A stretch of 64,000 bases of DNA from positions 1-64,000 of the forward strand of contig DATHMF010000009.1 in NCBI GenBank assembly GCA_035487355.1. The letters run 5' to 3'. Below, piece after piece: positions 1,419-17,434 of this stretch (positions are counted from its first letter, which is position 1; every line of letters starts with the position of its first letter). A program made the position numbers and the translations under genes. The notes below the pieces were generated by a model. It was not told the DNA's origin. It was given only the letters and a program-made list of their open reading frames with translations, and did not search any database. The stretch is from Terriglobales bacterium. GTDB taxonomy: Bacteria; Acidobacteriota; Terriglobia; Terriglobales; Acidobacteriaceae.

Positions 1419-3950
1419 ATGAATGCCTTCCAACTAAAACGTGCGTTTCGTCCGGTATTGATGAGCCTTTTTTTGGCCTTGACGTTCTTTGTCATGCTTT
1501 CTCTTCGTGGGTACTTGAATCCACCCAAGGTTGTAAGGGCCCAATCCGGTCCCACCATTACCGATTGGCAGCAATTCGGCGGCGACCCAACGCATTCGGG
1601 CGCCAACAATAGTGAGACCATAATTAATGCAAGCAACGTGAGTGGCCTTAAAAATGTCTTCACGTTTAACCTGGCAGCGGGCACCGATGCATCCGTTGTC
1701 GCTCTCACGGGCGTTTCGACATCCAGCGGCGTTAGAGATCTGGTCTTTGTTAATAGCAAGCTAGGAGATTTCTATGCGCTTGATGCGAAGACGGGGGCGG
1801 TAGTATGGACGGCAAAAGCGGCGGGAGGTTTCAATAATTCCAGTCCGGCCATCGATCCAAATCGACAGTTTGTCTATTTTCCAGGAGCAGATGGTTTCGC
1901 TCATAAATTTAACGTGGCGGATGGCGTCGAAGTCAAGGGTGGCGGTTTTCCGGCGATGGTAACCTCATGCAGCGGAACCAAGATTCCGTCAGCACTGGGA
2001 ATTGCAACCGACGCGAGTGGTGTTACCAGGCTTTACGGTTCGAGTTCGGGTTTTGGCGCCTGTCCCCACGGAAGCATTACGGCTATCGACCTGGCTACCG
2101 GCACACAACATGTGTTCAACGCGGCATGCAGCAACGTCGATGGGCACGTCGGGACGCCCGGCATCACAGGTTGCGCTAACGGGGGTTCAGGAGTGTGGTC
2201 ACGCGCCGGAGAAGTTTATGATCCCGCCACGAACCTGATTTATGTCGCCACCGCTGAATTTGGCGCTTTCAGTCCATCTACACACCGCTGGTCGCAGACG
2301 CTGCTGGCAATCAACCCGGACGGCACCACCAATAACGGTAATCCGGTCGACAGCAATACCCCTACAAATTTTGCGAGTGAAATCGCCGGCGATATTGACT
2401 ACGGCAGCAACAATCCGACTATAATGCCTGACTTGCCGGGCAGCACTGTCGCCCATGTGGTGTTAATGTGTGGAAAAGACGCCCAGATGCGGTTGCTCAA
2501 TGCGAATAATTTGAACGGCCACAATGGTCCTGGTTTCACCGGAGGCGATCTCTCGGATACCCCGCTGCCCCAGGGAGGCGAGGCGTTCTCCCAGATTGCG
2601 TTGTACACCGCTCCAGACGGCACCCATTGGGTCATTGCCCCAAGTACACATGGCATCGCCGGTCTCGTATATACGCTGAACGCGGCAAATCAACCGACCC
2701 TGATACCGAAATGGCATCTCACCAATGGCTGGGTCACTTCTCCCGTTGTAGCCAATGGCGTGGTCTTCGGTGCCAACGAGGCTGGACAGGTTTTCGCCCT
2801 GAACCTCACGACAGGAGCGCAGTTGTGGTCTGCAACGACAAACGGACGTCACTGGTCCAGCCCAGTTGTAGTCAATGGCATGCTTTACATCACAGATGGG
2901 TTTGGAGCTACAGGCGGCCGGCTATTGGCCTTTGGCTTGCCTTCCAGCGGCGGCAACCCGCCACCAGCGCCGGCGCTGGCAACGCCAAGTGCGGGTAACA
3001 ACCAGGTAAGTCTCTCCTGGTCGGCCTCGACGGGCGCCAGCAGCTACAACGTAAAACGCACCTTGACCAGCGGCATGAACTATGCGCTTGTAGCATCGGG
3101 CGTGACTGCAACCAGCTTCACCGATACGACCGTGACCAATGGCACGAAGTACTTTTATGTGGTCTCGGCACAGAACGCGGCCGGCGAGAGCGCTAACTCG
3201 AACGAGGTCTCCGCTACGCCAACGGGTGGGGTAACACCGCCCACGGCGCCGACGCTGGCAACGCCAACTGCGGGCAACAATCAGGTAAGTCTCTCCTGGT
3301 CGGCCTCGGCAGGCGCCAGCACCTACAACGTAAAACGCACCTTGACCAGCGGCGCCAACTATGCGGTTGTAGCATCAGGGTTGACTGCCACCAGCTTTAC
3401 CGATACGACCGTGACCAACGGCACGAAGTACTTTTATGTAGTCTCGGCACAGAACGCGGCTGGCGAAAGCCCTAACTCTAACGAGGTTTCGGCTACTCCA
3501 GCGAGTGGACCCGTGATTGCCATCAATGCCGGAGGACCGGCGGTAAGCCCGTTCGCGGCCGATATGGACTTCGTTGGCGGCACGACCATCAATCACGCCA
3601 ACACGATCAATCTGACCGGGGTAACCAATCCGGCGCCCATGCAGGTGTATCAGACGGCGCGGATTGGGAACTTTACGTACACGATTCCGGGGGGTACCGC
3701 CGGATCGAGTCATACCGTGCGCCTGCACTTTGCCGAGACCTTCTGGACGGCAGCGGGCAAGCGCAGGTTCAATGTTTCCATTAACGGAACGCAGGTGCTT
3801 ACCAACTTCGACATCTTTGCAGCGGCGGGCGCCATGAATAAGGCAACGATCCAGCAGTTCACGGTCAATGCCAATGCGGCCGGGCAGTACGTGATTCAGT
3901 TCACCGCGGTCACAGATAAATCCCTGCTGAGCGGAATCGAGGTTCAGTAG
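1419..3950 (+). CDS. Secreted PQQ-type beta-propeller protein with two FN3 domains and a malectin domain
   Basis: An 843-residue exported protein. An AAAGGAG sequence sits 6 nt before the ATG. A signal peptide/membrane segment occupies about residues 14-42 and ends near RAQSG. Residues ~45-510 carry PQQ-like propeller blades (e.g. FYALDAKTGAVVWTAKA, VFALNLTTGAQLWSA), then two near-identical FN3 domains (about 515-605 and 608-700) and a malectin domain (about 700-843). Such propellers occur in quinoprotein dehydrogenases and also in structural proteins; I see no clear catalytic Asp or PQQ/Ca ligand set, so enzyme activity is unproven. It is likely an extracellular sugar-binding or oxidising protein. 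A pqqA-like gene lies 170 bp downstream. Confidence 0.82.
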   Translation: MNAFQLKRAFRPVLMSLFLALTFFVMLSLRGYLNPPKVVRAQSGPTITDWQQFGGDPTHSGANNSETIINASNVSGLKNVFTFNLAAGTDASVVALTGVSTSSGVRDLVFVNSKLGDFYALDAKTGAVVWTAKAAGGFNNSSPAIDPNRQFVYFPGADGFAHKFNVADGVEVKGGGFPAMVTSCSGTKIPSALGIATDASGVTRLYGSSSGFGACPHGSITAIDLATGTQHVFNAACSNVDGHVGTPGITGCANGGSGVWSRAGEVYDPATNLIYVATAEFGAFSPSTHRWSQTLLAINPDGTTNNGNPVDSNTPTNFASEIAGDIDYGSNNPTIMPDLPGSTVAHVVLMCGKDAQMRLLNANNLNGHNGPGFTGGDLSDTPLPQGGEAFSQIALYTAPDGTHWVIAPSTHGIAGLVYTLNAANQPTLIPKWHLTNGWVTSPVVANGVVFGANEAGQVFALNLTTGAQLWSATTNGRHWSSPVVVNGMLYITDGFGATGGRLLAFGLPSSGGNPPPAPALATPSAGNNQVSLSWSASTGASSYNVKRTLTSGMNYALVASGVTATSFTDTTVTNGTKYFYVVSAQNAAGESANSNEVSATPTGGVTPPTAPTLATPTAGNNQVSLSWSASAGASTYNVKRTLTSGANYAVVASGLTATSFTDTTVTNGTKYFYVVSAQNAAGESPNSNEVSATPASGPVIAINAGGPAVSPFAADMDFVGGTTINHANTINLTGVTNPAPMQVYQTARIGNFTYTIPGGTAGSSHTVRLHFAETFWTAAGKRRFNVSINGTQVLTNFDIFAAAGAMNKATIQQFTVNANAAGQYVIQFTAVTDKSLLSGIEVQ
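2972..3509 (+). repeat. Tandem 279-bp FN3-encoding repeats
   Basis: Two consecutive FN3 units, starting at about 2972 and 3251, are offset by 279 bp (93 codons) and nearly identical in DNA, including long stretches with the same synonymous codons. This suggests recent tandem duplication inside the gene. Confidence 0.75.
3561..3950 (+). repeat. Malectin repeat, copy 2 (direct repeat with 772-1161)
   Basis: Partner of the 772-1161 copy. Synonymous sites are also largely identical, which points to recent duplication or gene conversion between neighbouring genes. More diverged malectin units lie at about 15610-16060 and 16980-17434. Confidence 0.85.
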
Positions 3951-4015: not shown

Positions 4016-4056
4016 CATCCTCCATGTGGCTTGGATGAGAAACCACATGGAGGATG
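4016..4056 (+). terminator. 14-bp hairpin downstream of the propeller gene
   Basis: CATCCTCCATGTGG (4016-4029) pairs perfectly with CCACATGGAGGATG (4043-4056) around a 13-nt loop, 66 nt after the stop of the upstream gene. No T-run follows. It separates that gene from pqqA. Confidence 0.5.
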
Positions 4057-4119
4057 GAAATGTCAGAACTGTATCAGAGCCCATCCCATTCCCAATGGGA
4101 CTAAAGGAGGTGGAGTAGA

Positions 4120-4197
4120 ATGATTTGGCAAAAACCCGGATTCGATGAAATCTCGCTGAGTTGTGAGATTAACTCTTACGCTTCGGCTGTGCTGTAA
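4120..4197 (+). CDS. pqqA: PqqA-like precursor peptide (25 aa)
   Basis: An ideal Shine-Dalgarno (AAAGGAGGTGG, 4103-4113) sits 6 nt before an ATG that opens 25 codons: MIWQKPGFDE then ISLSCEINSY then ASAVL. This fits the PqqA pattern: an aromatic residue near the N-terminus, Lys-Pro, then Glu and Tyr spaced E-x-x-x-Y (E16 and Y20, the two residues cross-linked by the radical-SAM enzyme PqqE during PQQ biosynthesis). Length and residue positions match the family, e.g. the EVTSYESAE-type core of methylotroph PqqA. It lies between a PQQ-type propeller gene and a TonB receptor. No pqqB, C, D or E is in this window, so maturation genes must be elsewhere; alternatively it is a PqqA-like RiPP. A hairpin and T-run follow. 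Confidence 0.75.
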   Translation: MIWQKPGFDEISLSCEINSYASAVL

Positions 4198-4245: not shown

Positions 4246-4294
4246 AGGGAAGAAGTCGCTCTCCTGCGGATTCTTCCCTAGGGTCCGGATTTTT
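4246..4294 (+). terminator. Candidate terminator of pqqA
   Basis: AGGGAAGAA (4246-4254) pairs with TTCTTCCCT (4271-4279) across a 16-nt loop; GGGTCCGGA and five Ts (4290-4294) follow. It lies about 50 nt after the pqqA stop. The loop is long, so this is moderate evidence. Confidence 0.4.
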
Positions 4295-4528
4295 AAGATC
4301 TGTAGTCCGCGTCGACACATGGCCAGCACTTGGAACAACAACAAGTAATCCACATCATTTCACGCACGAGAGTTTGATCCTTCCAGCGTAGATTTTTGTT
4401 GCGATTCGCGACCTTAATGCCCCTGACACTGAACCAACTTCTTCCGGCTTTGGGTTCAAGAGCGCGCCGAAATAGATTGTTAAGCCTAAGAGAGGGTCGT
4501 TAAGTTAACCCGTTAAACAAAGACAATT

Positions 4529-10217: not shown

Positions 10218-11066
10218 ATGAAAAATGCAAATTCGGGCGCTTACCCTGCTTACAAACAGCAGGCAAGTTCGCAAGCGTGCGCCGTTCTAAGGAATATGGC
10301 TACTTTGATTTTGCATGGACCTGCCTGGAAGACATTTGCTTGTCGAGGACTGGCCGCTTTCATTGTTCTGGCCGTCATGCTTCCGCCGGCCTGGGCAAGC
10401 GATAGCTGCAGCGCCAAGCAGGCTGCGTTAGAAATATTTCTCAACGCGCAACCAAACCATTGCGTCCAGGATGCTGAGTGCGACGGATATTACCTTAGCG
10501 TTGACGCTTGTGCCCCTCCCGTAGCCATGGCCAAGCCGGGAGTCATCAAGGCACAGGAACCACAACTATTAAAGCTGCAAGATGAGGTTCGCGAGGCATG
10601 CGCCGATTCCTGGAACCAGCGTCCGGCATGCTCGCCGATTTCTTTTCAAGCGAAGTGCCGTGAAAATCGCTGCGTCAACGCTGCGCCGGCGGCCAAGGCA
10701 GAATATCCTTATGCAGTTATCCGCCACGAGTGCGCGCCCTGGGATGGGCCAGCGATTGGAATTCACCTGACCCAATCGGAAGCCAGGGAACACGAGGTTC
10801 CTGCGCCTTCCCTCAACATATCGGTATGGCGCGGATTGCCGCCGCCCACCGACAAACCCATTCCCTTGCGCACCGGAGGAGTAGGTATAGCAACGCGCTG
10901 TCTCAGCCTTGAAAAGTGCGAGACTGCCACTAGCGCTACGATTACCTTCACGAGTTATGATGAAAACTCGGTTTCAGGAAGTTATGAGCTGAAATTCAAA
11001 AATGGCGATATCGAACGCGGATCGTTCCACGCGGATTGGCAGGATTATCATGAATTGTGTGGGTGA
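10218..11066 (+). CDS. Secreted cysteine-containing hypothetical protein
   Basis: 282 residues. The ATG at 10218 is chosen because TTAGGAGGACC lies just before it; a longer frame starts at 10155 without such a site. A hydrophobic segment (about residues 38-58, AAFIVLAVMLPPAWA) precedes a likely cleavage site before SDSCSAK. The mature region has about ten cysteines in small motifs (HCVQDAEC, DACAPP, EACADSW, ACSPIS, KCRENRC), suggesting disulfide-bonded extracytoplasmic folding. The beginning resembles short Cys-rich modules with a CxxDxEC pattern; the C-terminal half looks all-beta. I do not recognise the family. Confidence 0.65.
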   Translation: MKNANSGAYPAYKQQASSQACAVLRNMATLILHGPAWKTFACRGLAAFIVLAVMLPPAWASDSCSAKQAALEIFLNAQPNHCVQDAECDGYYLSVDACAPPVAMAKPGVIKAQEPQLLKLQDEVREACADSWNQRPACSPISFQAKCRENRCVNAAPAAKAEYPYAVIRHECAPWDGPAIGIHLTQSEAREHEVPAPSLNISVWRGLPPPTDKPIPLRTGGVGIATRCLSLEKCETATSATITFTSYDENSVSGSYELKFKNGDIERGSFHADWQDYHELCG

Positions 11067-11794: not shown

Positions 11795-12010
11795 CAACTG
11801 GGTCCTAGACGGAGAATATCGAGGCCCTAACAGACAGCTAGACAATTTAAGACGACACTGGCGGAAGTGTGTGCTTTTGTGAGTTTGGCACTGCTTAAAC
11901 TTTCAAGGATGCATCGGGGCGGAAATGCTCTTCCAGGGGGTCGGGTAAGCGCAGAGAAAGACCATGAAGACCGTGAAAACGTCGGCAGAGGTAAATTCCT
12001 AGGAGAACCC

Positions 12011-15000
12011 ATGTTACAGCGAATGACTCTTACCCTTCAGCAAATTCCCGCGGGCAAGGCAATAAAACAAGCTGGCCAATTGGCGGCACTTCCATTCATT
12101 CTCGTTGTCCTGCTGGGACTCCTGGGCCTTCCAGCGCTTGGGCAGGTTAGTGTCCTGACCCAAAACGCCGATACCGAGCGCGATGCAGTCTACAGCAATG
12201 AGATACAGCTTACGCCGACCTCCACCATCCACAAGCTCTTTACTACGACGACGCTCGACGACCCCGTGATGGGACAGGCGCTGATTCTCGGCGGAGTGAA
12301 CGTGTCTGGCTTTCCAACCAACATCCTTTTGGTTGCCACCTCGCCGAACCATAACGCGGGCGGAACAAGCGCCTATGCATTCGACGCGGACACAGGAAGG
12401 CAACTCTGGCGATTGGGTCTGGGAACCAACGCCCCTTTCAATACGGCGACGCCCGTGTTGGACCCCAATTTGGGCCCGCATGGGGCGCTCTTCGTGGTGA
12501 CCAAGGATAGCGCCACCAATACGAACAGCTTGCATGCGATTGATGTTATTGCCGGAGCCGAACTCCCCGGAAGCCCAATCACCATCTCGGCCACGTCCAA
12601 CGGAGTCGGCTTCAATTCGGGCCAGGAGAATGCCCGCGCGGCGCTCTTGGACATAAACGGCACCATTTATGTAGCGTTCTGCCACATGACGGACTCAGGC
12701 ACCTATCACGGCTGGCTGATCGGCTACAAATACACGAACGGCTCTGGCTTCAGCCAGAACGGCGTATGGTGCGACACCTGCGCCAACGCCGGAAACCAGG
12801 GCGGGCTTTGGGGGGGCGGCGACGGCACCGCCTATGATGGGACGAACATCTTTGTCGAAACCGGCAACGGCTCGATTGGTAACGGGGACTGGTCGATGAG
12901 CATCGTGCAGATAAGCCCATCCGCGCTTGGCACCGTGACCTCCTCCTTCCTGCCGCCAAATGCGCAAACCCATAGCAACAGTGACCAGGATCTGAACGGC
13001 GGTGGCATGGTGATCATGCCGGGGACCGGAGGCAAGATCTTCCAGGGACCGAGCAAGTATGGCTCCCTGTATCTGGTGGATTCAGCGCATCTTGGCAACG
13101 CCGCCATCAACACCTACAGCACGAATTCGACCATTGGCCATTCCCCGATCGCTTGGAATTCCGGTTCCGCGCAGTATGCCTACATTTGGGCTAGCGGAAG
13201 TGCCCTCCAGCAGTTCTGCTATGCCGGAGGAAACACCGGCAGCGGGCCGTGCAAGCAATCCTCGTTTACCGGCGGCGGCACGCTGGCCATCTCCTCGACG
13301 CCTACCGGCGGGAGCGCCATTCTGTGGGCTTTTGGAGGCAGCGAGCTGCACGCCATGAATCCGGCGGATGTTTCCGCTCCCGATTATTGGAACAGCAATA
13401 TGTCCTCCGGTGATGCCACGGGAGCGGGCGGGGCATTTCAATACCTTGCCATCGCGAACGGCAAGGTTTATGTGCCGGCCGGCAACACGATCATCGCCTA
13501 TGGCTCGGTAAACACTTGCACTACGGTGCCGACGGCGCCGAGCGGTCTGGCGGCGTCAGCTGTTTCAAGCAATCAGGTGAACCTGAGCTGGACGGCCAGC
13601 ACTACGACCTGCACGGGAGGCGTTGTTTACAACATCTTCCGCAGCACGACCAGCGGCTTCACGCCTTCCAGCAGCAACCAGATTTCCAGCGGAGTAAACG
13701 GAACCACTTTCAGCGACACCACGGCTCAGCCCAGCACAACATACTTTTACGTTGTCGAAGGAGTCAATTCCGCTGGAAGCTCTCCAGCATCCAACCAGGC
13801 CTCTGCGACAACTCCTTCAGGCTGCATGCCGCCGACGGCGCCGAGTGGGCTTGCTGCCACGGCGACTTCAAGTAACGCGATTAGTTTAAGTTGGGGGGCG
13901 GTCACGACGACGTGTACGGGTGGGGTGACGTACGACGTGTTCCGCAGCACGACCAGCGGCTTCACGCCTTCCACCAGCAATCAGGTCGCCAGCGGGGTGA
14001 CGACGGCCTCCTTCGTCGACTCGGGACTGACGGCTTCAACTACGTATTTCTACTTGGTTGAAGCAGTCGACACCGGCGGCACCTCGGCCGCGTCGAACCA
14101 GGCTTCCGCGACAACTCTGCCGCCGGGGAATGTGTGTCCGCGATTTGCGCCGGGGAGCGTGGTGAATCCGCCAGTCGATCTATTCAGCTCGGGCGGGACG
14201 CTGACGGTGAACTTGGCGTACAACACGGATACAGATGCGGCCGGGCGAACGGTCTACTGCTTCACCACGTCCACTGGGGCGGAGTCGCCGACGCTGCATG
14301 TGAATCCAGGCGATCATTTGACGATCAATTTGACCAACGCATTGCCGCCGGCCACCGGCGGGATGACGGTGAACAGTCCCTGCGGGCCGTCGTCGCTGAT
14401 GAACGCCTCGTCGGTGAATATTCACTACCACGGGACGAACATGTCCCCGGCGTGCCATCAGGATGAAGTGATCCACACGCTGGTGAATTCGGGACAGAGC
14501 TTCACCTACAACGTAACGTTTCCAACCGACGAGCCGCCCGGACTCTACTGGTATCACCCGCACGTGCACATGAATTCGGAAACGGGAGTGCTGGGCGGAG
14601 CCACGGGCGCGATCGTGGTCGAGGGGATTCAGAACTTAGTGCCAGCGGTGGCCGGGTTGCCCACGCGCATTCTCGTGGTGCGCGACAACACGCTGGCGGG
14701 GACGGGCGGAGCGGGATCGCCCTCGAAGGACCTGTCACTCAACTACGTGGCCATTGATTCGCCGTCGGAGACGCCGGCGATCATCCAGATGAAAGCGGGC
14801 GAGCAGCAGTTCTGGCGCGTGCTGAACGCGTCGGCGGATACGCCCATGGACTTGCAGCTCGTGTATGACGGCGTGGTGCAGCCGCTGACGGTAGTGGCGC
14901 TGGACGGCGTGCCCACCGGCTCGCAGGACGGAGGCGGGCAGGGCACAGCCATCACCAAGCAGGACATTTTGCTTTCGCCAGCCGGCCGCGCCGAGTTCAT

Positions 15001-17434
15001 CATGACCGGACCAACGGCCTCGGTCAGCAGCGCTTCGCTGATCACACTGGCCGTGGATACAGGAGCGTCCGGAGCCAGCGTTCCGCAGCGCACGCTGGCC
15101 AACATTCAGCTCAGCGCTACGGCGCTGGCGCCGGTGCACTCGGCGGCAGTCGGCAAGGCGGGACCGCAGCGCTTCGCGGGATTGGCAGCGGCGACGCCGA
15201 ACACCACGCGCTCGCTGTACTTCTCCGAGTCGAGTCCGGACTTCTTCATCACCGTCAACGGGGCCACGCCCGCGGTCTTCAATCCCAACAATCCGCCGGC
15301 GATCGTGACCACGCAAGGATCGGTCGAAGACTGGACGGTGGAGAACCGCACCACCGAGGTGCACGACTTCCACATTCACCAGATTCACTTCCTGCTGTTG
15401 CAGCGCGACGGCGTGGCCGTCTCCACCGATGACATGCAGTATCTGGACACGGTGCACATTCCGGCGTGGACGGGAACAGGGCCGTATCCGAACGTGACCG
15501 TGCGCATGGACTTCCGCGGGCTGGACATCGGGGACTTCGTCTACCACTGCCACATTCTGTCCCATGAGGACAGTGGGATGATGGCCATCATCCGGGTGAT
15601 TCCGCCGGTGCAAATCAACGCGGGCGGCCCGGCGGTGGCTCCGTTCGTGGCCGACGCGGACTTCTCCGGCGGCGCGACCATCAACCACGCCAACACGATT
15701 GACCTGAGCGGGGTGACCAATCCGGCGCCCATGGCCGTGTATCAGACGGCTCGGGTCACGGCGGCGGTCGGCGCGGGCACGACGTTCAGCTACACGATTC
15801 CGGGCTTCGTTCCCGGATCAAGCCAGCTCGTGCGCCTGCACTTTGCCGAAACATTCCACACCACGGTTGGCTCACGCGTCTTCAACATAAGCATCAACGG
15901 CACGCAAGTGCAGGCCAACTTCGACATCTTCGCGGCGGCCGGCAACGCGGCCAACAAAGCGGTGATCAAGGAGTTCACGGCCAACGCCGATGCCAACGGC
16001 AATTACGTGATCCTGTTCACCACGGTCACCGACAAGGCGCTGGTGAGCGGCATCGAAGTGATGGCGGGCGAAACCAGCACTACATGCACGCCCCCGAGCA
16101 CGCCCACGAATCTGGCGGCCACGGCCGTTTCCAGCAGCCAGATCAATCTGACCTGGACGGCGAGCAGCTCGTCCTGCACGCCGACCTACAACGTGTACCG
16201 CAGCACCACGCCCAGCTTCACGCCGTCGTCGGCCAATCTGGTGGCCAGCGGGTTGACCACCACGGCGTTCTCCGATACTGGGTTGAGCGCTTCGACCACT
16301 TACTACTACCTGGTGGTGGCGGTGACCTCCGGCGGCATGTCGGCGGCGTCGAACCAGGCCAATGCCACCACGCAGCCGGCTGCATGCGGCGGTGCGCCCA
16401 CTACGCCTACTGGGCTGAGCGCCACGGCCATCTCGACCAGCGCGATCAACCTGGGCTGGACGGCGAGCACGGCTCCGTCGAACTGCACCATCACCTACAA
16501 CGTGTACCGCAGTACGACAGCGGGCTTCACGCCTTCGAGTGCCAACCAGGTGGCCAGCGGCTTGACCACTACGGCGTATTCGGACACGGCGCTGACCTGC
16601 AGTACCCCCTACTACTACCTGGTGGTGGCGGCAGACGCATTCGGTTCCTCGGCGGCGTCGAACCAGGCCACGGCCACAACCCAGGCCTGTGCTTGCAGTG
16701 CTGCGCCGACCACGCCTACTGGGCTGAGCGCGACGGCGGCATCGAGCAGCGCGATCAACCTGGGCTGGACGGCGAGCACGGCTCCGTCTGGCTGCACGAT
16801 CACCTACAGTGTTACGCGCAACGGGGCGGCGGCCGCGAGCGGCCTCACCGGCACGATGTTCGGTGATACTGGGCTGGCCTGCAACACGGCCTACACGTAC
16901 ACGGTGACGGCGGCAGACGCATTCGGTTCCTCGGCAGCGTCGAGTCCGGCCAGCGCGACAACGTCGCCCTGCGCGGGCGTGCAGATCAACGCGGGCGGGC
17001 CGGCGGTGGCGCCGTTCTCCGCCGACGTGGATTTCACCGGAGGCGCGACGATCAATCACGCCAACGCCATCAACTTGAATGGCCAGCCCAACCCGGCGCC
17101 CGCGGCGGTATACCAGACGGCGCGTGTGACGGCGACGCCCGGCGCGGGCACGACGTTCAGCTACACGATTCCCGGCTTTACCGCGGGATCGAGCCACACC
17201 GTGCGGCTGCACTTCTGCGAAACGTTCTGGACAGCGGTCGGTCAGCGCGTGTTTAACGTGAGCCTCAACGGGACGCAGGTACTCCCCAACTTCGATGTCT
17301 TCAAGACGGCGGGTGGGCAGAACCGCGCACTCATCCAGTCGTTCATGTCCAACGCCAACTCGAACGGCCAATACGTGATCGTATTCACCAGCGTCACCGA
17401 CAAGGCCCTCATCAGCGGCATTGAGGTCCAGTAA
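12011..17434 (+). CDS. Giant secreted PQQ-propeller/multicopper oxidase/FN3/malectin protein
   Basis: 1807 residues from the ATG at 12011 (TAGGAG 7 nt upstream); a longer frame from 11867 lacks such a site. Order: signal segment (about 25-47), PQQ-type beta-propeller (about 50-500), two FN3 (500-705), a full multicopper oxidase (705-1198), malectin (1200-1350), three FN3 (1357-1655), malectin (1655-1807). All copper ligand motifs are present: H805-x-H807, H849-P-H851 with H853, H1118/H1121/H1123, and H1179-C1180-H1181 with H1185 and M1190 (C-x4-H-x4-M), so type 1 and trinuclear sites with an axial Met are expected. It probably oxidises phenolics or metals outside the cell while bound to polysaccharide. 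Quinone binding by the propeller is unproven. A 17-bp hairpin follows. Confidence 0.85.
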   Translation: MLQRMTLTLQQIPAGKAIKQAGQLAALPFILVVLLGLLGLPALGQVSVLTQNADTERDAVYSNEIQLTPTSTIHKLFTTTTLDDPVMGQALILGGVNVSGFPTNILLVATSPNHNAGGTSAYAFDADTGRQLWRLGLGTNAPFNTATPVLDPNLGPHGALFVVTKDSATNTNSLHAIDVIAGAELPGSPITISATSNGVGFNSGQENARAALLDINGTIYVAFCHMTDSGTYHGWLIGYKYTNGSGFSQNGVWCDTCANAGNQGGLWGGGDGTAYDGTNIFVETGNGSIGNGDWSMSIVQISPSALGTVTSSFLPPNAQTHSNSDQDLNGGGMVIMPGTGGKIFQGPSKYGSLYLVDSAHLGNAAINTYSTNSTIGHSPIAWNSGSAQYAYIWASGSALQQFCYAGGNTGSGPCKQSSFTGGGTLAISSTPTGGSAILWAFGGSELHAMNPADVSAPDYWNSNMSSGDATGAGGAFQYLAIANGKVYVPAGNTIIAYGSVNTCTTVPTAPSGLAASAVSSNQVNLSWTASTTTCTGGVVYNIFRSTTSGFTPSSSNQISSGVNGTTFSDTTAQPSTTYFYVVEGVNSAGSSPASNQASATTPSGCMPPTAPSGLAATATSSNAISLSWGAVTTTCTGGVTYDVFRSTTSGFTPSTSNQVASGVTTASFVDSGLTASTTYFYLVEAVDTGGTSAASNQASATTLPPGNVCPRFAPGSVVNPPVDLFSSGGTLTVNLAYNTDTDAAGRTVYCFTTSTGAESPTLHVNPGDHLTINLTNALPPATGGMTVNSPCGPSSLMNASSVNIHYHGTNMSPACHQDEVIHTLVNSGQSFTYNVTFPTDEPPGLYWYHPHVHMNSETGVLGGATGAIVVEGIQNLVPAVAGLPTRILVVRDNTLAGTGGAGSPSKDLSLNYVAIDSPSETPAIIQMKAGEQQFWRVLNASADTPMDLQLVYDGVVQPLTVVALDGVPTGSQDGGGQGTAITKQDILLSPAGRAEFIMTGPTASVSSASLITLAVDTGASGASVPQRTLANIQLSATALAPVHSAAVGKAGPQRFAGLAAATPNTTRSLYFSESSPDFFITVNGATPAVFNPNNPPAIVTTQGSVEDWTVENRTTEVHDFHIHQIHFLLLQRDGVAVSTDDMQYLDTVHIPAWTGTGPYPNVTVRMDFRGLDIGDFVYHCHILSHEDSGMMAIIRVIPPVQINAGGPAVAPFVADADFSGGATINHANTIDLSGVTNPAPMAVYQTARVTAAVGAGTTFSYTIPGFVPGSSQLVRLHFAETFHTTVGSRVFNISINGTQVQANFDIFAAAGNAANKAVIKEFTANADANGNYVILFTTVTDKALVSGIEVMAGETSTTCTPPSTPTNLAATAVSSSQINLTWTASSSSCTPTYNVYRSTTPSFTPSSANLVASGLTTTAFSDTGLSASTTYYYLVVAVTSGGMSAASNQANATTQPAACGGAPTTPTGLSATAISTSAINLGWTASTAPSNCTITYNVYRSTTAGFTPSSANQVASGLTTTAYSDTALTCSTPYYYLVVAADAFGSSAASNQATATTQACACSAAPTTPTGLSATAASSSAINLGWTASTAPSGCTITYSVTRNGAAAASGLTGTMFGDTGLACNTAYTYTVTAADAFGSSAASSPASATTSPCAGVQINAGGPAVAPFSADVDFTGGATINHANAINLNGQPNPAPAAVYQTARVTATPGAGTTFSYTIPGFTAGSSHTVRLHFCETFWTAVGQRVFNVSLNGTQVLPNFDVFKTAGGQNRALIQSFMSNANSNGQYVIVFTSVTDKALISGIEVQ

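Follow-up and report, generated by a model that had tools for sequence, protein, structure and literature searches.

Dispersed pqqA genes are already known from methylotrophs: Methylorubrum extorquens carries pqqA2 and pqqA3, and Methylovorus sp. MP688 has five copies, with PqqA supply reported to be rate-determining in Methylovorus (PMC11317620). The same paper speculates on a role of PqqA in lanthanide uptake. In Pseudomonas, the quinoprotein alcohol dehydrogenase genes of the ped cluster have as neighbours pqqD-II and, in some species, the pqq operon (PMC12997753). No report of several pqqA copies in acidobacteria was found in the open-licence literature.

The locus described here resembles both arrangements in part. 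As in methylotrophs, there are additional pqqA genes outside the operon, but the phylum is a different one and the acidobacterial copies recur beside one secreted propeller family. As in the ped cluster, PQQ synthesis is represented next to a (probable) quinoprotein gene, but by a lone pqqA rather than by a pqqD copy or an operon, and the adjoining propeller does not belong to the methanol/ethanol family by score. As far as the open-licence literature shows, the recurrent pairing of pqqA with a secreted propeller family that is barely recognised by Pfam and NCBIfam is new.

An extra pqqA gene outside the pqq operon

The window (the whole 64-kb stretch of DNA analysed, taken from contig C9; the host genome is 5.4 Mb in size and 96.6% complete) contains a 25-codon gene encoding MIWQKPGFDEISLSCEINSYASAVL (Table 1). 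The PqqA hallmarks on which the original prediction was built (W3, K5-P6 and E16-x-x-x-Y20) can all be read in this translation, and the ribosome binding site that it described is in place. The peptide passes the curated thresholds of both Pfam PF08042 (22.1 vs 21.1 bits) and NCBIfam TIGR02107 (28 vs 20 bits, E 1.4e-6) and is thus no chance resemblance; PqqA is its sole family match in these two collections. The Glu and Tyr that are cross-linked in the PqqA family correspond to E16 and Y20. The gene agrees with that family in length, in W3, P6 and the E16-xxx-Y20 spacing, in passing both cut-offs and in the presence of PqqE and PqqD in the genome, and differs in its location, away from the pqq operon and 3' of a gene for a secreted propeller. 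We conclude that it is a genuine extra pqqA copy, presumably translated.

Table 1. Features in and around the pqqA copy of the window.
Feature	Position	Strand	Basis
PQQ-type eight-bladed propeller, secreted, with two fn3 and one malectin domain; probable quinoprotein	1419-3950	+	Pfam, profile and fold matches, conserved D286 and K312 (aligned-core numbering)
Perfect inverted repeat, 14-bp arms, between propeller stop and pqqA	4016-4056	+	Sole copy in genome; stem in 169-nt spacer (folding)
Shine-Dalgarno AAAGGAGGT, strong	4103-4111	+	8-9 nt upstream of the pqqA ATG; sequence
pqqA paralogue, 25 codons plus stop	4120-4197	+	PF08042, TIGR02107, three own-genome paralogues
Terminator-like hairpin with T-rich tail, 3' of pqqA	4267-4295	+	Consensus match only, not above chance expectation

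A search of the host genome with the peptide recovered three paralogues (E 5e-7 to 6e-6), so that four pqqA genes are present in total. The copy in the window is the most divergent of them (G7, D9, S12, S14). It differs from the other three (loci L016, L017 and L018) by 6-11 silent codon differences and 7-9 residue changes, with dN of 0.15-0.20 and dS either saturated or 1.2. Ten positions are invariant over 22 aligned PqqA copies (M1, W3, P6, C15, E16, I17, N18, S19, Y20 and A23). Invariant residues combined with diverged codons form the pattern of a gene selected for its PqqA sequence, here over only 25 codons.

Genes for the rest of the pathway are encoded elsewhere. As originally claimed, no pqqBCDE lies near the gene in the window, and the label of orphan is apt for the locus but not for the genome, in which pqqA, C, D and E are grouped on contig C27. 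The operon pqqA (C27:12544) is separated by only 15 nt from pqqC (324 bits vs a cut-off of 240). pqqD (53.7 vs 23.4 and 56.8 vs 46 bits) lies immediately 5' of pqqE (C27:13694, 523 vs 381 bits), whose product is the single PqqE above cut-off in the host genome. Also on C27, about 9 kb downstream of pqqA-pqqC, is pqqB (C27:23878-24798, 352 vs 245 bits). Further pqqA copies occur at C27:88304 and C115:76291. The genome search suggested with the prediction thus returned pqqB, C, D and E together with three further pqqA copies. The host places pqqC directly after pqqA (L016, 7545-9804), and most relatives have pqqB between A and C; in another genome, G045, a pqqA-pqqB pair and pqqE are on separate contigs.

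The peptide is conserved in relatives, the other point on which the prediction could have failed, with related copies in MAGs named Acidobacteria gp1, Terriglobia, Acidobacteriaceae and Candidatus Sulfotelmatobacter. The sole congener, a genome that is 76% complete, yielded no one-to-one relative. Among 150 genomes of the host family, pqqA was identified in 43 and pqqE in 39 (both in 38, neither in 106, discordant in 5 and 1), and the majority of the 6 discordant genomes are incomplete. From this co-occurrence, PqqA-type peptides are as a rule accompanied by their modifying enzyme. One MAG titled Alphaproteobacteria bacterium (L171) holds an operon containing pqqABCE with a CEINSY-type PqqA, attributable to horizontal transfer or binning error.

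The adjoining propeller as a candidate quinoprotein

The gene had been described as lying between two genes for PQQ-type propellers. The upstream one, on the same strand and about 170 nt away, is a true neighbour; the other (11867-17434) is 7.7 kb off, and the intervening ORFs include one for a TonB-dependent receptor. This more distant ORF encodes 1855 residues comprising a PQQ-type propeller, a multicopper-oxidase, five fn3 and two malectin domains, and its propeller retains the family's conserved W, N, D-x-D and K columns.

The N-terminus of the adjoining propeller protein is hydrophobic and signal-like, as judged by eye. In a PDB search with its full-length sequence, matches to the fn3 and malectin domains dominated. 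When 13 propellers of this kind (20-25% identity to the window's protein) were combined into a profile, quinohemoprotein alcohol dehydrogenases came top in the PDB (E 5e-12 to 2e-10), with BamB just behind. Without the window's protein and that of L138 the matches were far weaker (best E 3e-4), and 1kb0 was equal to a BamB fragment. Only nine columns are invariant across the 13 propellers. D286 and K312 are among these and fall on Asp308 and Lys335 of 1kb0 in three alignments (counted in HMMER coordinates); the column of 1kb0 Asn263 holds N, D or E in every propeller, and Glu in the window's. We take Asp308 to be the catalytic base, Lys335 to contact PQQ and Asn263 to bind the metal. W219 is invariant as well, with an uncertain match to the stacking Trp. 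In lanthanide-type enzymes the catalytic Asp is followed, two positions on, by an additional Asp. A lanthanide-type reading of the invariant D284-x-D286 is not supported, since it is the second Asp, D286, that aligns with the catalytic base in the three alignments.

AlphaFold2 produced propeller models of middling confidence (pLDDT 64 and 71). PQQ dehydrogenases rank first for both in Foldseek; geometric Z-scores from VIA-align place YxaL and BamB on top, with no PQQ dehydrogenase among the best 50. Pfam and NCBIfam match propellers of this type weakly, mostly to BamB-type repeats, or miss them. The protein falls below the cut-offs of TIGR03075 (methanol/ethanol-family PQQ dehydrogenase; 49.3 vs 480 bits) and TIGR04528 (acido-empty-quinoprotein group A; 38 vs 650 bits), and neither model has a match in the host genome at E 1e-20, although the E. 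coli control matches both.

With the quinohemoprotein alcohol dehydrogenases (1kb0, 1kv9, 1yiq), which lead its profile and Foldseek matches, the protein would share a predicted eight-bladed propeller and the aligned Asp, Lys and metal-ligand columns; unlike them, it has fn3 and malectin domains and no haem domain, and by TIGR03075 score it falls outside the methanol/ethanol family. The acido-empty-quinoproteins are likewise acidobacterial propellers related to PQQ enzymes, but by score the protein is not a member, and PQQ synthesis genes are present here. The protein probably works as a PQQ-dependent dehydrogenase, with PQQ binding judged from residue conservation.

Retention of four pqqA genes and of pqqBCDE implies that a client is needed, and the propellers are the best candidates seen. 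Because no methanol/ethanol-family PQQ dehydrogenase was identified in the host genome, its approximately 15 propellers are likely PQQ clients, perhaps alongside others such as a six-bladed soluble glucose dehydrogenase.

A gene product in G045 (C9:200258-201775) scores above the TIGR03075 cut-off (569 vs 480 bits) and reaches 527 vs 650 bits on the acido-empty-quinoprotein model. Given this high score in a genome with PQQ synthesis genes, the 'empty' label may fail for some relatives.

Recurrence of pqqA beside propeller genes

We surveyed 80 related loci in public genomes, together with the copies in the host and the congener, giving about 84 distinct pqqA loci, of which 27 stand at the head of pqqBC(DE), the remaining 57 or so being orphans. 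Thirteen of these orphans have a propeller or BNR gene no more than 300 nt away; in 11 cases pqqA is the 3' partner, in the same orientation, with a spacing of 20-170 nt. Orphan pqqA genes 3' of a propeller gene, or of the BNR gene that often follows one, occur in several genera. Another 34 orphans lie in one conserved block that has no propeller, largely in a Sulfotelmatobacter-like clade. That block (L101, L105, L113, L120, L127, L154 and about 28 similar loci) encodes a membrane protein resembling glycosyl-phosphotransferases and a radical-SAM-like protein bearing the motif CxxCGHCCPxP.

In G045, six pqqA genes lie away from pqqB; two are directly 3' of a propeller gene and three are 3' of a propeller-BNR pair, in one of which only a propeller remnant is left. 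Genes for secreted BNR-repeat proteins (sialidase-like fold) stand exactly 20-25 nt 5' of pqqA at L109 (6536-7978), L096, L104, L125 and L144. Propeller, BNR and pqqA possibly form a three-gene operon. Operon copies of pqqA can also have opposite-strand propeller genes nearby, at 95 nt in L093 and at about 430-530 nt in L103, L106 and L107.

The host genome has one other close homologue of the adjoining propeller (46% identical, C27:88744), with a pqqA about 260 nt 5' of it, and about 13 of its 15 propeller genes have no pqqA alongside. G045 has about 13 propeller genes. Taken as guides only, since gene numbers were estimated and duplicated operons are not independent, the chance that a random intergenic slot touches a propeller gene is p ~0.006, two of three in the host genome gives p ~1e-4, and the value for G045 is far lower. 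Of seven genomes searched, four have about 12-15 genes of the family each and the others 2-4; fn3, malectin or multicopper-oxidase domains are attached to some members, and some have no Pfam or NCBIfam match at all.

Secreted quinoprotein dehydrogenases may form a large family in host-family acidobacteria, most of it unannotated, in which individual members are followed on their 3' side by a pqqA cistron of their own; we give this proposal slightly less than even weight. If true, the cofactor precursor would be made together with the enzyme.

Role of the extra copy and alternative explanations

The explanation that we favour, with fair confidence, is that the gene in the window supplies an extra PqqA substrate for PQQ, and that this supply is coupled to the probably PQQ-dependent propeller behind which it sits. 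On the simplest reading, the peptide feeds the single PqqE/PqqD of the genome, and hence PQQ: PqqD would hand it to the sole PqqE, which would cross-link Glu16 with Tyr20, and the remaining pqq products from contig C27 would complete PQQ, as expected for the operon copy. With pqqA 3' of the propeller gene, co-expression would raise PqqA supply as the propeller is made, and because the propeller is probably a PQQ-dependent dehydrogenase, this position would match supply to demand. The suggestion in the original prediction that the gene supplies PQQ for secreted quinoproteins fits all findings, with use of PQQ by the neighbour resting on its conserved residues.

Alternatively, the copy may only add dosage to a common PQQ pool. 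In that case its adjacency would be left over from a duplication, and the propeller would work without PQQ, being either BamB-like or an 'empty' quinoprotein. The many orphan copies that have no propeller neighbour are consistent with this, as are the BamB-type repeats of the propeller, its geometric matches to YxaL and BamB, and the existence of an NCBIfam model named for empty quinoproteins. Set against these are the recurrence of the adjacency in several genera, the fact that none of the 13 diverse propellers has lost the Asp, Lys or metal-ligand column, and the failure of the window's protein, and of everything in its genome at E 1e-20, to match the empty-quinoprotein model. We consider a pure dosage role unlikely, although it is the strongest of the competing explanations.

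The prediction had also offered a separate PqqE-modified RiPP, in which the peptide would be the precursor of another product with a signalling or metal-binding role. Its divergence from the other own-genome copies and the speculation on lanthanide uptake (PMC11317620) could be read in this way. However, the length and C-E-I-N-S-Y core equal those of the operon copy, the cross-link residues are the same, the genome has one PqqE above cut-off, and no maturation gene (protease, second PqqD or radical-SAM) was recognised beside the locus, so a separate RiPP is not favoured and we regard it as very improbable. We give equally little credence to a decaying, untranslated duplicate. Such a gene could well be the most divergent copy and lack a one-to-one relative in the single congener, but it would not be expected to have an intact frame, a strong ribosome site, and invariant residues retained while silent sites diverged.

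A PQQ-making acidobacterium in which no methanol/ethanol-family PQQ enzyme was seen raises the question of what PQQ is used for. The pqqA-propeller pairing provides a direct and testable answer, and marks a secreted soil protein family that current profiles miss or match weakly. A 25-codon pqqA outside the operon is a possible genomic flag for unrecognised quinoproteins.

The inverted repeat between the propeller gene and pqqA has no T-run. The propeller-pqqA pair of the congener (L020) also has a hairpin (about 10710-10740, located by eye) in its 103-nt spacer. The hairpin in the window may set differing levels of propeller and pqqA message.
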